Assembly (NCBI RefSeq): GCF_022808815.1
Contig: NZ_JAKZLC010000002.1
Location: 124,001 to 188,000 of the forward strand
Direction of reading: 5' to 3'
Source: Geothrix paludis
GTDB lineage: Bacteria > Acidobacteriota > Holophagae > Holophagales > Holophagaceae
DNA: 64,000 nt
A program made the position numbers and the translations under genes. The notes under the pieces were generated by a model. It was not told the DNA's origin and did no database searches. It worked only from the letters and a program-made list of their open reading frames with translations. Below, piece after piece: positions 417 to 49,000 of this stretch. How positions within the stretch are numbered: the stretch's first letter is position 1; each line of letters begins with the position of its first letter.

Positions 417-1277
417 CTAAGGCTTGAAGCTGACTTCATAGATCCGCCAACTGCCTGCAAATAGAGCAAAGACGATCTCATTAAGAACAGCGCTCTTCGG
501 GAATTTGATGACATGGAAGACACCGCTCTCGGAGAGCCTGATCTGGGGGTCTTCCTGGGCGTCTTTTCTTGACAGTGCCTCATTGAGACCCAGCGGGCCA
601 TAGATGGCCTCCTTGATCTTGGGGTTGGAGCGAATTTCATTTTCGGAGGGGCCATTATAAGAAATAATGTTGTCGCCCCTATAAAATTCGAAATCTGGCG
701 TAAGCATGGCTTCCAGAGCCGCCGGATCCTGCTTTGCCATGATCTTCTTCAAGCCTTCAGCGGTGGGTAGAGGCGGAACCTCATTCGAGAAGCCATCGAA
801 TCCCAGAATTCTGATGCTGACAACCAAGCCATCATGATTGAGCTCTAAGCTGTAATTTCGATCGGCGTAGTCGAGGCGCGTGTATTCGGTGCCGTCATCC
901 ATGTACTTCGATTTCGATCTGGGTGGCCCGAGCGACTTGAACACCTCGCTTTCGGTCGAGCCGAGCGTGAGACCGGCGAGGCCTCCGTCCCCCGGCGTTG
1001 GCTTCCCGAAGAGTTGGATCGCGGTGATGCGATCCTTCTGGGGCGCCGCGAACTCGAAAATCAGCAGGTGATCGTGTTTTTCGGAGGTCCAGAAGGCCTT
1101 GATCAGCCAGCCATCCGAGGTGGTCCGCTCCTCATAGGGTTTCCCGAGGGTGGCTTCGACCACCCTGGCAATCTGGCCCAACTGGAATCCGCCTAGCTTT
1201 AATTGACTCGGCAATCCCTGGCAAATACCAAACGTGGAGGCGCAGGCCAACAGGATTCGGAGGGGCTGTTTGAGCAT
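417..1277 (-). CDS. Hypothetical secreted protein
   Basis: 286 aa from an ATG at 1277, preceded by AGGA. The first ~22 residues (MLKQPLRILLACASTFGICQ) are a signal peptide, so the product is probably periplasmic or secreted. The rest is soluble, mixed alpha/beta, with no motif I recognise. A middle part (about residues 95-160) with Asp/Tyr-rich strands and a C-terminal part (about 165-286) may be two domains, the latter perhaps like small SnoaL/NTF2-type folds, but this is only an impression. The start codon lies 17 bp after the right box of an attC-like site (1295-1301), the usual arrangement for an integron cassette gene. Function not assigned. Confidence 0.7.
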   Translation of the reverse strand: MLKQPLRILLACASTFGICQGLPSQLKLGGFQLGQIARVVEATLGKPYEERTTSDGWLIKAFWTSEKHDHLLIFEFAAPQKDRITAIQLFGKPTPGDGGLAGLTLGSTESEVFKSLGPPRSKSKYMDDGTEYTRLDYADRNYSLELNHDGLVVSIRILGFDGFSNEVPPLPTAEGLKKIMAKQDPAALEAMLTPDFEFYRGDNIISYNGPSENEIRSNPKIKEAIYGPLGLNEALSRKDAQEDPQIRLSESGVFHVIKFPKSAVLNEIVFALFAGSWRIYEVSFKP

Positions 1278-1294: not shown

Positions 1295-1418
1295 GCCTGA
1301 CGAAAGAAAGAATCGGCCCCGTCTGAGCCGAGGCTAGGAACGGAGACGAGGGAACGGAAGGTTGAGAGAGGGCGGAAGGCAATGCAGGCGGGGTCCGAGT
1401 TGGGCGAGAGGGTCAGAC
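1295..1418 (-). other. Degenerate attC (integron cassette recombination site)
   Basis: On the minus strand the segment starts with GTCTGAC (1418-1412) and ends with GTCAGGC (1301-1295), one change each from the attC consensus boxes RYYYAAC and GTTRRRY. It is exactly 124 bp, the same length as the clearer attC at 1983-2106. It shares blocks with that site, including GACCCCGCCTGCATT and CTTCCG. Placed directly downstream of the thioredoxin gene and 17 bp before the next gene. Confidence 0.6.
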
Positions 1419-1427
1419 CGATGAATG

Positions 1428-1955
1428 CTATGGCTTTTCTTTTAGAATTTGATTGAGTTCGTAAACAATCAATCCCTCGCCATAGCCAGACCACCTCGTT
1501 GCAAGCTTGCCTGTGCGATCAATGATCAAGGTTGTGGGGTAGGAATTGATATCTCCGCCGAGATTGGTGCCGATACCATTTTTGCCGATCTGTGGCCGGT
1601 AGTAGGTGAACCCAGGAAGGGCGCTCTTATTCTTGTTCAGGAACTGAACAACACCTTGAGGCCAGTATTGATCATCGAGGTTGCAAGGAATGACGACAAG
1701 GTCCCCTTTTCCAGCGCCTTGCTTTTGAAGAGCATGGATCTCAGGGAGTGAGCGCCTGCAGGGACCACACCATACAGTCCAGAAATCTACGATGACAATT
1801 TTTCCTTTGAAGTCTTCGATTAAGCATTTCTTCCCATTCTGATCAACAAATCCAAGTTTGCTCAGGTCAATGCGTTTCTCGAATGGGAAATGCTCTGTAT
1901 CACCGGCCATGGCGGTCGACAGACAAAGGGCGATTGCAAGCAGGGCTCGGACCAT
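1428..1955 (-). CDS. TlpA/ResA-type thioredoxin-fold thiol-disulfide oxidoreductase
   Basis: 175 aa. A signal peptide (about residues 1-18) is followed by a thioredoxin fold of the TlpA/ResA/AhpC-TSA group. Visible are the KGKIVIVDFWTVWCGPC stretch with catalytic WCGPC at about 62-66, and a cis-Pro region near YPTTLIIDRTGK (about 140-150). Such proteins reduce or exchange disulfides in periplasmic or cytochrome-maturation clients. I prefer the ATG at 1955 because GGAG sits 6 bases upstream; an ATG at 1967 is also in frame but lacks a ribosome site. It lies between two 124-bp attC-like sites, so it looks like an integron cassette gene, and its GC is lower than core genes. Fold confidence is high; client unknown. 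Confidence 0.85.
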   Translation of the reverse strand: MVRALLAIALCLSTAMAGDTEHFPFEKRIDLSKLGFVDQNGKKCLIEDFKGKIVIVDFWTVWCGPCRRSLPEIHALQKQGAGKGDLVVIPCNLDDQYWPQGVVQFLNKNKSALPGFTYYRPQIGKNGIGTNLGGDINSYPTTLIIDRTGKLATRWSGYGEGLIVYELNQILKEKP

Positions 1956-1982
1956 ACGCAACTCCATGAAGGTTTGTGGGAG

Positions 1983-2106
1983 GCCTAACGAATGAAGCTA
2001 AGCGGTCACGCCTGCACCGAGGCACTGAGCGGAGCCGGGATAGCGAAATGATGAGAGAGAGCGGAAGGTAATGCAGGCGGGGTCAGACTTGAGCGGAGGG
2101 TTAGGC
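1983..2106 (-). other. attC integron recombination site
   Basis: Minus-strand reading starts with GCCTAAC (2106-2100) and ends with GTTAGGC (1989-1983), perfect complements matching the attC R'' and R' boxes. Inside the boxes, CGCTCAAG near the left and CTTAGCTTCATTC near the right resemble the L'' and L' boxes of classical 59-base elements. Length is 124 bp. It sits 3 bp after the stop of the DUF5677 gene and 28 bp before the next gene. Confidence 0.8.
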
Positions 2107-2109
2107 AAT

Positions 2110-2895
2110 CTATGACGGAAATCCTTGTAACTGGTCAATAGTTTCTTGAACAAATTTGGGTTCATCAACTCCGAAAATCACAGCTGTGGCCAACACAGCT
2201 TTCAGCAAACAATCAGCGAGGGTGGTGAGGTGGGCATCAAACATTTCAAGGTCGGGCTCGTTCTTGATCTCCTTGATCGAGACTTTTTCGGGATCCATTT
2301 CCAGTGCTTCCTCTAATGATCTGGGGGAGGCGTGGAGTGTAATGCTCATGAATGAATAGAGCGTGTCGTAATAGTCCTGAAGTCCTGCTTTTTGGGCGCA
2401 TTCGTAAGCGCTAACAGACACTATCTTTTCGGTGAGTATGTGTTGTTTGATACTGTCGGCGAGATTCTTTAATTCCTGAAGGTCATCCCTATCGTTGTTT
2501 CTCTCCTTGTATCTGATGATTTTATTGATTCCCTTCAATCGTTCATGTTCCTCTGAAAGTACAAATATGTTTACAAAATTTAATTCCTTTGAGATCGCGA
2601 TAAGGGGAAAAAGTGGTTCGAGTATGCATCGAATCAACATTTGAATTTGGTGCTTCATCCCCTTTTGGGAGAGTAGCAGTGCTCCTTGGTATGTTGTAAG
2701 AACCCTAGAAAATAATATTGAACAAATGATTTCAGACGGGTGCTCATTATGAATAGCAAGTGAATATTGAAATGCCTGTGCCCGCTTATTTAATTCCATA
2801 CAAATCGAGATCAATTCACCGTGTTTTACATTCACTACATCAGTGAAGAATGAGAATTCATCGGCCAGAAAACCTTGTTCTCCAAAGGTAGTCAT
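2110..2895 (-). CDS. DUF5677-like hypothetical protein, low GC cassette gene
   Basis: 261 aa from an ATG at 2895 with GGAG 5-6 bases upstream. The protein is soluble and mostly alpha-helical, with an internal stretch (about residues 60-95, RVLTTYQGALLLSQKG then helices rich in Leu/Ile) that resembles the DUF5677 family seen in many accessory regions. The biochemical role of that family is not established as far as I know. The gene is strikingly AT-rich compared with everything from 3134 onward, which points to horizontal acquisition. It begins 15 bp after a perfect GTTAGGC box (2917-2911) and ends 3 bp before an attC, so it is a textbook cassette layout. Confidence 0.75.
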   Translation of the reverse strand: MTTFGEQGFLADEFSFFTDVVNVKHGELISICMELNKRAQAFQYSLAIHNEHPSEIICSILFSRVLTTYQGALLLSQKGMKHQIQMLIRCILEPLFPLIAISKELNFVNIFVLSEEHERLKGINKIIRYKERNNDRDDLQELKNLADSIKQHILTEKIVSVSAYECAQKAGLQDYYDTLYSFMSITLHASPRSLEEALEMDPEKVSIKEIKNEPDLEMFDAHLTTLADCLLKAVLATAVIFGVDEPKFVQETIDQLQGFPS

Positions 2896-2910
2896 TATGT
2901 CTCCAAGATT

Positions 2911-3023
2911 GCCTAACCTTGAATTAGACGATCAAACCCATCACAGGGTCCGTCGTCTGGCGTGAATGAAGGAACGATACCGACATTGTAGATCACGGGG
3001 TCCTTTCCCCGCCGAACGGTGGC
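2911..3023 (-). other. Partial or degenerate attC/attI upstream of the first cassette
   Basis: The downstream end on the minus strand is a perfect GTTAGGC (2917-2911), preceded by GTCTAATTCAAG, very like the right half of a known attC. A GACCCCG block and TTCATTC also match the site at 1983-2106. The left box is not clear: GCCACC (3023-3018) or GTTCAAC (3039-3033) are the options, so the left boundary is approximate. It may instead be an attI site. Confidence 0.5.
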
Positions 3024-3133
3024 AAAACCGGGGTTGAACGGGGATACCCCGCCCTCCCACCCAGAATGGAGTGGGAAGCATGGATCAACGGAGTGGTGTC
3101 CCCGCGGCCCTCAGACTCTCCCGGTCATGGCCC

Positions 3134-4267
3134 TCAGGCCTGGAGCTTCCCCAGCAGGTCCTCGGCCACGCGCCCTGCGGCGCCGGGCTGGCCCAGGTGG
3201 CCGCGCACCTCGCCCAGGTCTGCGCGGATGCGGCGGGCGGTGTCGGGGTCCAGCAGGCGCGTCAGCTCCAGGCCCAGCCGCCCGGGGTTCACCTCGCCCT
3301 GGAGCAGCTCGGGGGCCACTTCGCGGCGGGCCACGACGTTGGCGAGGCCGAAGTGGGGGACCTTCACGACGCGCTTGGCCATCTCGTAGGTGAGGGCGTT
3401 CAGCTTGTAGACGATGGCGAAGGGGGTTCCCAGCAGGGCCGTCTCCAGGGTGGCGGTGCCGGAGGCCACCAGGGCCGCGTCCGCGTGGGCGCGGGCGGCG
3501 TAGGGGCGGTCCTGCACCAGCGTCACGGGCGCGTCTCCCAGGTGGGCGCGCACGAAGGCGGACTCCAGCGTGGGGGCCACGGGCAGCACCCACTGGACCT
3601 CGGACTGGGCCGTGCGCCAGCGCCGGGCCAGCTCCGCCATGGGCGGCAGCAGGCGCTCGATCTCCCCCTTGCGGCTGCCGGGCAGCAGGGCCACCAGGGG
3701 CCGTGCGGGGTCGAGGCCGGTCTCCGCGAAGAAAGCGGCGCGGTCGCACTCGGGCTTCACCACCTCCACCAGGGGGTGGCCCACGAAGCGGGCGTCCACG
3801 GGGTAGCCGCGGAACAGCTCGGGTTCGAAGTCGAAGAGGCAGTAGAGCGTGTTCAGCACCGTGCCCAGCTCGGGGATGCGCCCCTTCTTCCAGGCCCACA
3901 CCTGGGGGCACACGTACTGGTGCAGGGTCACGGCGGGCAGCTGCTTCCGCAGGGCCTTGGCCAGCCGCAAGTTGAAGCCCGGGTAGTCGATGAGCAGGGC
4001 TCCGGCGACCTGCTCCTCCGCCGCGGTGGCCAGGATGGCCTTGAAGAGCCGATTCAGGCGCGGAAGGTGCTTGATGACCTCCACGAAGCCCACGACAGCG
4101 AGATCCTTCACGTCCGCCAGCTTGCGGTCCAGGAAGGGGCTCATGCGCGGGCCGCCGACACCCACGAGGCGCAGGTCAGGCCGGCGGGTCTTCAGCTCGC
4201 GCAGCAGCTCGGCGCCATGGAGGTCGCCAGAGTCCTCGCCCGCGATGACCAGCAGGGTCTTCGTCAT
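3134..4267 (-). CDS. lpxB: Lipid-A-disaccharide synthase
   Basis: 377 aa, the usual LpxB length (about 380). It condenses UDP-2,3-diacylglucosamine with lipid X to form the disaccharide of lipid A at the inner membrane, so the cell has an LPS-type outer membrane. Family marks include the N-terminal MTKTLLVIAGEDSGDLHGA (GE-SGD-H-A motif), LIDYPGFNLRLAK, CPQVWAWKKGR (about 117-127), VGHPL and LLPGSRKGEI in the middle, and VASGTATLE near residue 280. The ATG at 4267 gives the expected GEDSGD start; the longer open frame above it belongs to another gene. It overlaps the upstream gene by 4 bp (ATGA), so both are probably translated together. Confidence 0.95.
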   Translation of the reverse strand: MTKTLLVIAGEDSGDLHGAELLRELKTRRPDLRLVGVGGPRMSPFLDRKLADVKDLAVVGFVEVIKHLPRLNRLFKAILATAAEEQVAGALLIDYPGFNLRLAKALRKQLPAVTLHQYVCPQVWAWKKGRIPELGTVLNTLYCLFDFEPELFRGYPVDARFVGHPLVEVVKPECDRAAFFAETGLDPARPLVALLPGSRKGEIERLLPPMAELARRWRTAQSEVQWVLPVAPTLESAFVRAHLGDAPVTLVQDRPYAARAHADAALVASGTATLETALLGTPFAIVYKLNALTYEMAKRVVKVPHFGLANVVARREVAPELLQGEVNPGRLGLELTRLLDPDTARRIRADLGEVRGHLGQPGAAGRVAEDLLGKLQA

Positions 4268-4950
4268 GAACGGTTCCCCGTGGGACCCCAGTGCCGCCCG
4301 AAGGCGAAGCCCTCCGGCGGCTCGGCGGCGCGATCCAGGCCCGGGGGCAGGATCTCCTCGGGGAAGATCACCTCCGGATGGGCGGCCGCCAGCGCGGCGG
4401 CCTGCGCATGGAAGGTGGCGGGATCCTCCGCGGGCAGGGCCATGTCCCAGCGGTAGCCCAGCTTCTGGAGCGGGCGCAGGTCCGAGGCCGGCCCGCAGAC
4501 GCCGCACCAGAGGCGGTCCGCCAGACGCTCCGCGTCCAGGGTGCCCGGGTGCCAGCAGAAGCCCACGGCGTCGGCCTTGGCCTGGGTCAGTAGGTCCAGC
4601 ACGGCGCCCTCGGCCCCGCCCTCGATGCTCAGGGCGATCTTCGCGCCGCGGCCGCTGGCGGCCTCCAGCAGGGTCTCCAGGTGGCCCAGCAGGCGGAAGC
4701 CCGCCTCGCGGGTCTGCGGACGGACGACGGGCAGGATGAGGAAATCCGGGCCGAGCGAGGCGTGGAGGACCGCGAGCCCATCTTCCACGGGCGACTGGCT
4801 GGACAGGTGGACGGCGTGGATGGCCAAGCCTCGGCGCGCAAGGGTGGACCAGTCGGGATGCAGGCCGCCCTCCCACCGCAGGGTCAGGGGCGCCAGGGGG
4901 ACCCAGGGACCGGGATCAACATGGGAAGGGATCTGGGGCACGAACCGCAT
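4264..4950 (-). CDS. Hypothetical protein upstream of lpxB
   Basis: About 228 aa from the ATG at 4950; in-frame starts at 4968, 4989 (ATG) and 4995 (GTG) cannot be excluded, since none has a strong ribosome site except AGGG ahead of 4989. Alternating beta strands and helices (AIHAVHLSSQSP, FLILPVVRPQTREAG, KIALSIEGGAEGAVLDLL, AVGFCWHPGTLD) suggest a TIM-barrel of the sugar-phosphate isomerase-like type, but no catalytic set stands out. It overlaps lpxB by 4 bp and faces the DUF2203 gene head to head. Possibly a partner of lipid A or envelope sugar metabolism by context only. Confidence 0.6.
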   Translation of the reverse strand: MRFVPQIPSHVDPGPWVPLAPLTLRWEGGLHPDWSTLARRGLAIHAVHLSSQSPVEDGLAVLHASLGPDFLILPVVRPQTREAGFRLLGHLETLLEAASGRGAKIALSIEGGAEGAVLDLLTQAKADAVGFCWHPGTLDAERLADRLWCGVCGPASDLRPLQKLGYRWDMALPAEDPATFHAQAAALAAAHPEVIFPEEILPPGLDRAAEPPEGFAFGRHWGPTGNRS

Positions 4951-20511: not shown

Positions 20512-20588
<77 letters not shown>

Positions 20589-48605: not shown

Positions 48606-48623
48606 AAGCCCCCTTGCGGGGGC
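48606..48623 (-). terminator. rnpB terminator hairpin
   Basis: AGCCCCC and GGGGGCT around a GCAA loop, just past the RNase P RNA 3' end. The run after it is TCGCG rather than T-rich, so it is a hairpin of weak terminator quality. Confidence 0.55.
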
Positions 48624-48626
48624 TCC

Positions 48627-48980
48627 GGTGGATCGGTAAGCCGGGTTCTGTCGTGGGACGTCATTCCTCTGGGATGGATGTCGCCATCCAACTCAAGCGA
48701 CCTACCCGCCGGCTCGGTCGGGTCAACCCTCGCCGCTTGCGCGGTGCGCCGGCCTATTTGGTCTTGCTCCCTGGGGGGTTTACCGTGCCCGTCCTGTTGC
48801 CAGTCCGGCGGTGGGCTCTTACCCCACCGTTTCACCCTTGCCTGTGATCCGAAGATCCATCGGCGGTCTGCTCTCTGTTGCACTTTCCGTCGGGTCGCCC
48901 CGCCCTGGTGTTACCAGGCCCAGCACCCTGTGGAGCCCGGACTTTCCTCTGCCCTTGCGAGCAGCGACGCCCTGATCCAC
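48627..48980 (-). ncRNA. rnpB: RNase P RNA, bacterial class A
   Basis: About 354 nt on the minus strand. Conserved regions are seen in order: GAGGAAAGTCCGGGCTCCAC (CR-I), GCAACAGAGAGCAGACCGCC, GGTAAGAGCCCACCG (CR-II/III area), GGCAAACAGG-type region at ACTGGCAACAGGACGGG, CAAATAGGCCGGC, and at the 3' end AGAACCCGGCTTACCGATCC (CR-V). The ends pair as GTGGATC with GATCCAC (P1). It processes tRNA 5' ends. A detached copy of its last 24 bases lies at 48492-48515. Confidence 0.95.
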
Positions 48981-49000
48981 AAGGGTGAGGCTAGCACGAT

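Follow-up and report, generated by a model that had tools for sequence, protein, structure and literature searches.

In the window, the whole 64,000-nucleotide stretch analysed here from the genome (G000) of the soil bacterium Geothrix paludis (Holophagaceae, Acidobacteriota), the DNA following lpxB carries a two-cassette satellite array, in which a DUF5677 gene and a thioredoxin/redoxin-like gene are each closed by an attC site (Table 1). The array is headed by an attI-like core with L and R boxes and a G^TTRRRY cut, which would fall at G^TT between 2917 and 2916; the first attC follows 826 bp downstream of the core. The core differs from that of the intI-linked attI by one change, next to the cut, and the next-best match within the 64-kb window has six mismatches. 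An accessory direct repeat, CCAGACGAC, stands in fixed register at -44, in agreement with the intI-linked attI and 15 other orphan sites, and is a weaker match than the repeat at other sites. The earlier note had pointed to a third right box, GTTAGGC at 2917-2911, 15 bp before ORF 2895-2110. This is a real junction, and the lone box is, as its sequence is read here, the end of the putative attI-like site, invisible without tools.

At the other end of the array, the R'' box of attC2, GTCAGGC, forms the right-flank junction, where homology to the flanks of genomes G006 and G018 restarts. Three genes had been proposed as cassettes, of which two stand; the gene at 417-1277 is rejected as a cassette because no attC follows it, and it is a fixed flank with 92-95% protein identity in two sister species. 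With two attC and the nearest intI 452 kb off, the array has the composition of a CALIN (at least two attC, no intI nearby). No intI adjoins the attI-like site in the flanks examined, and the locus is not a complete integron. PADLOC gives no match for the two cassette genes that would point to a defence role, and the DUF5677 cassette gene is found in 0 of 99 relatives. No copies of the window's cassettes occur in the other arrays retrieved from the same genome; the nearest thing elsewhere in it is a 27%-identical thioredoxin-like protein at about C2:123.2-123.7 kb. The window also contains an ordinary class A RNase P RNA (48621-48983, minus strand) and an ordinary tRNA (20512-20585, plus strand).

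Table 1. Features of the array at lpxB, in window coordinates; bit scores for attC come from an HMM built in this analysis.
Feature	Position	Strand	Remarks
Right-flank gene, fixed, non-cassette	417..1277	-	orthologues in G006 and G018 (95% and 92% identity), directly behind the last attC
attC2, last attC of the array, decayed	1295..1418	-	78 bits against the genome's attC model
Cassette 2: thioredoxin/redoxin-like gene (1967-1428) and attC2	1301..1988	-	Pfam Redoxin, 8.7e-11
attC1, intact	1983..2106	-	111 bits against the genome's attC model
Cassette 1: DUF5677 gene (2895-2110) and attC1	1989..2916	-	Pfam PF18928, 1.9e-21
Anchor downstream of lpxB	2911..3060	-	conserved in G006, G018, G007, G015 and G008; decayed in G025
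attI-like core TCGTCTAATTCAAGGTTAGG, L box and R box	2912..2931	-	1 mismatch to the attI core beside intI
Direct-repeat-like motif CCAGACGAC	2952..2960	-	starts 44 bp before the cut; 2 mismatches to YTAGRCGAA
lpxB, left flank	3134..4273	-	conserved in the genus

attC sites of the array

The segments 1983-2106 and 1295-1418 are attC sites of one family, for which recombination by IntI is predicted. The first, a 124-bp site with GCCTAAC/GTTAGGC ends as previously described, is the sole perfect R'/R'' pair spaced 80-140 bp in the 64-kb window; the second, noted before as a 124-bp relative with boxes GTCTGAC/GTCAGGC, is confirmed as a member of the same family. BLAST of attC1 against its own genome returns 40 scored matches at 85-100% identity, and attC1 is 94% identical to the attC at C2:581059 and C6:774. 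The spacer signature of the 124-bp site has 69 matches against 0 for a reversed-pattern control, which excludes chance, and the HMM and spacer pattern together raise the related attC in the genome to more than 60.

Over 56 attC of this genome, a 27-pair structure comprising the R stem, the L stem with extrahelical bases and a central GCCTGCA/TGCAGGC stem has 93.5% of its cells paired, compared with only 25-49% in slid controls. Compensatory change is seen in 9 pairs (shuffles 2.1, with 0 of 500 as high), and none of the 500 shuffles equals the structure on any of five measures. The family thus shows the R'/R'' and L'/L'' hairpin with extrahelical bases, with attC2 in decay, and such decay of the distal attC is also seen in other arrays. 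Folding of single sites, which had been proposed as a check, is less convincing: in the MFE fold of attC1 the R and central stems form, yet z = -0.4, and the hairpin is absent from that of attC2. MFE folding was accordingly set aside as proof of attC identity, being no better than shuffles and uninformative, and covariation counts were used instead. Some other dispersed inverted repeat would agree with these single-site folds and with the Rfam scan of the window, which gives no attC at gathering threshold. This reading is already contradicted and keeps practically no probability, since the R/L architecture carries compensatory changes and the ORF arrays run in one orientation with IntI and attI at their head.

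Integrase and further arrays of the genome

The array had been suggested to be a cluster of attC sites lacking an integrase. None is indeed in its neighbourhood, but the idea that the genome has none is rejected: the search elsewhere for intI finds a full-length match at C2:579331-580275 (TIGR02249, 462 bits, cut-off 265). It is the sole IntI above cut-off in the genome and lies about 452 kb from the window's array on the same contig; two thirds of it are matched to the solved IntI 2A3V (E 1e-59). Upstream of intI, an attI and at least ten attC run as far as the end of the contig. Contigs C4, C6 and C7 also carry array pieces at their ends, and small satellite arrays are present on C1, C3 and in the window. 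The genome therefore holds an IntI, an attI and a long array of near-identical attC. Integron integrases are common in Geothrix and Holophagaceae; intI is present in 61 of the 150 relatives searched across the phylum, some of which have two copies.

Beside intI of G000 lie two tandem attI (C2:580556-580790; L013:556-790). The first unit opens like a known cassette (CGCCCAACCAGCGGAGTACGCTC) and closes with an attI copy (C2:580571-580780) rather than an attC, and its second half is 81-84% identical to the orphan attI of G002 and G032. The arrays of G006 and G015 open with the same attI-ended first unit. In G020, attC-like matches beside intI are spaced exactly 472 bp (C1:716000-726000, L159, 458-1979), which suggests tandem copies of one cassette.

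Recurrence of attI-like sites across Geothrix

Homology downstream of lpxB spans the anchor of about 150 bp and halts at the lone right box in G006, G018, G007, G015 and G008, and different attC-bearing cassettes follow in all five. An attC also follows a more divergent anchor in G009, and the site in G025 retains a decayed core and a 40-nt attC remnant. No attC is present at the site in twelve other, mostly more distant, relatives, and a clean empty site was not found among the relatives examined. The right flank common to G000, G006 and G018, which contains the gene at 417-1277, starts at the R'' box of the last attC, and the three genomes have 0 cassette genes in common between the shared flanks. 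The lpxB gene is 94-96% identical in close sisters whose cassettes at the same anchor wholly differ. The same anchor and flanks with unlike cassettes show that the place is fixed while the cassettes turn over. Fixation of the same genes in relatives, which the earlier note had named as evidence against mobility, is confined to the flanks. Turnover at lpxB is seen between species, not strains, and current activity is therefore unproven.

The lpxB anchor ends TCGTCTAATTCAAGG^TTAGG, compared with TCGTCCAATTCAAAG^TTAGG for the attI beside intI. As is established for integron recombination, it is the target rather than the cassette that supplies the bases left of the cut; the attI likeness was therefore not brought by ordinary cassettes. 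Most intI-linked attI have a CTAGRCGAA repeat starting 44-45 bp before the cut, and the lpxB anchor has core and repeat in common with the attI beside intI, whereas the sequence separating and surrounding these motifs is not shared. Conservation over 30 orphan sites extends from -15 to +6; the full 15-bp left half is present, and almost nothing is shared outside the contact motifs. Some large-array orphan sites are exceptions, sharing longer attI sequence with one another and with the intI-linked region. Save for these, the poorly conserved DNA that separates and surrounds the contact motifs suggests that sites may have been selected through recognition rather than by copying.

Across 28 Geothrix genomes, the attI core (at most 3 mismatches) has 49 matches, intI-linked ones included, against 2 for the reversed pattern. 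An attC in the same orientation follows within about 0.2-1.1 kb in 27 of the 28 testable matches, that is, intI-less matches with enough downstream sequence; the sole exception is G025 C1:194761. Because this count started from the core, a reverse test was run starting from attC alone. Of 21 testable satellite arrays found in this way, 14 are preceded by a core with at most 5 mismatches, located no more than 1.5 kb ahead of the first attC, and in two others the core has a one-base indel, whereas the best core in the control spans, 1.5 kb after the last attC, has 7-10 mismatches. About five of the 21 have no recognisable core upstream.

The repeat YTAGRCGAA (at most 2 mismatches) stands at -45 or -44 in 16 of 25 orphan sites (12 and 4, respectively), and all other registers together account for three strays; in shuffles the mean is 0.25 sites and the maximum 4. 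Some orphan sites are orthologous and such counts therefore overstate independence, and the repeat is present at several unrelated flanks. The arrays or attC without a recognisable upstream core are G000 C1:124787-124909 (L215), G006 C3:68 kb, G015 C1:1268 kb, G025 C1:454 kb and G032 2005 kb. They are possibly true attG insertions or decayed heads, and those of G006, G015 and G025 look like one locus because the right flank GCATCCCTGAAACGAT is common to them.

Two further fixed sites are observed. At C1:1186k, G000, G001 and G011 have the same anchor with different DNA after the cut, and in G015 and G013 the same gene is followed by a core-like site. A dispersed repeat of about 50 nt (CCACCGATGAACACAGATGAACACCGATAAA), with dozens of copies per Geothrix genome, lies beside this site (L319-L334). 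The third site, on C6, follows a peptidase-like gene in G000, G006, G018 and G015, and in G032 by the same gene end. In G032, whose 3.27 Mb are assembled as one contig, the intI array occupies 557-581 kb, an attI-like site heads another large array at 1528-1547 kb, and satellites are placed around 2005, 2640, 3180 and 3245 kb; the recurrence of the layout in a single contig argues against an assembly artefact. The anatomy, the one full-length IntI of G000, the fixed site, the differing cassettes of sister species and the recurrence in the genus are all read directly from the genomes.

Candidate mechanism and alternatives

An integron is usually imagined as a single integrase with a single attI and a single array, and cassettes that stray elsewhere are taken for accidents or relics. 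In G. paludis, one IntI probably serves several dispersed, conserved orphan attI platforms in trans. The lpxB segment would be a small cassette array on an orphan attI (direct repeat, L box, R box) with no integrase of its own, and the chromosome's single IntI, encoded 452 kb away, would act on it in trans. Recombination by IntI at G^TT would take place between a folded attC bottom strand and the double-stranded attI-like site; new cassettes would thereby enter beside lpxB, and the enzyme could also excise them again. Several such sites would be fixed at set chromosomal places, each heading an array of one to dozens of cassettes. From anatomy and comparison we infer the action in trans, the continuing activity of the orphan sites and their origin. 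Extended to the whole genus, a distributed integron, with one integrase and several fixed, non-identical attI docking sites that persist without adjacent intI and each carry a changing array, is slightly favoured.

The orphan sites might instead be what is left of complete integrons whose intI disappeared long ago, with no exchange now. Decay of attC2 and several satellite attC, the two intI copies of some relatives and the longer attI sequence common to some large-array orphan sites and the intI-linked region all fit such relics. The explanation is nevertheless unlikely: attC1 is intact, the sites examined show no remnant of intI, and the wholly different cassettes at the same anchor in close sisters require exchange after their split. 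Also rather unlikely is that the lpxB array records one attG accident, in which IntI inserts at a secondary site needing little beyond GTT. Integron integrases are reported to insert cassettes in this way (Loot et al. 2024, as cited in PMC12444791 and PMC12901181), and both the near absence of shared sequence outside the contact motifs and the few arrays lacking a core agree with it; however, in E. coli the attG insertions have been described as spread broadly (PMC12444791), whereas here the same loci recur across species, with the full 15-bp left half and the repeat in fixed register. Seeding by a cassette ending in attI rather than attC, which would have carried attI sequence to a new place, appears improbable. 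The attI-ended first unit beside the G000 intI is of this kind, and the formation and mobility of delta-attI cassettes are known from class 1 and class 2 integrons (PMC12901181), but the lpxB anchor, unlike a copy, shares only core and repeat and not the DNA between or around.

The favoured arrangement, a trans-acting IntI at orphan platforms, resembles a sedentary chromosomal integron in its IntI, attI and long array of alike attC, and differs in that an array stands on an attI-like site of its own, 452 kb away from intI, as one of several such platforms. CALIN loci at conserved positions are known in Xanthomonas (PMC12444791) and likewise have two attC and no adjacent intI; the Geothrix array is attI-headed, its cassettes vary by species and intI is elsewhere in the genome. 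The nearest case found is a Shewanella prophage with two attI-headed arrays, in which, likewise, an intI-less array stands behind an attI in an IntI-bearing genome; it concerns one prophage with apparently the same attI sequence, whereas the Geothrix sites are genus-wide, several per chromosome and unlike in their flanks. As portrayed in the papers citing Loot et al. (2024), attG insertions are also chromosomal cassettes away from attI, presumably inserted by IntI, but dispersed, whereas the Geothrix sites combine attI core and repeat and recur at the same loci, as at lpxB with its L box and repeat. A search of openly licensed papers found no account of several dispersed, non-identical, conserved attI-like platforms per genome in a genus, and nothing relevant on Geothrix or Holophaga integrons.

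If this reading is true, integrase-less arrays would have to be interpreted differently in view of a genus whose attI-type sites are multiplied and fixed at a distance from intI, and cassettes could occupy several expression contexts simultaneously. The naturally occurring set of non-identical attI sites would also reveal the bases that the integrase needs, and the boundary between attI and attG would become testable.
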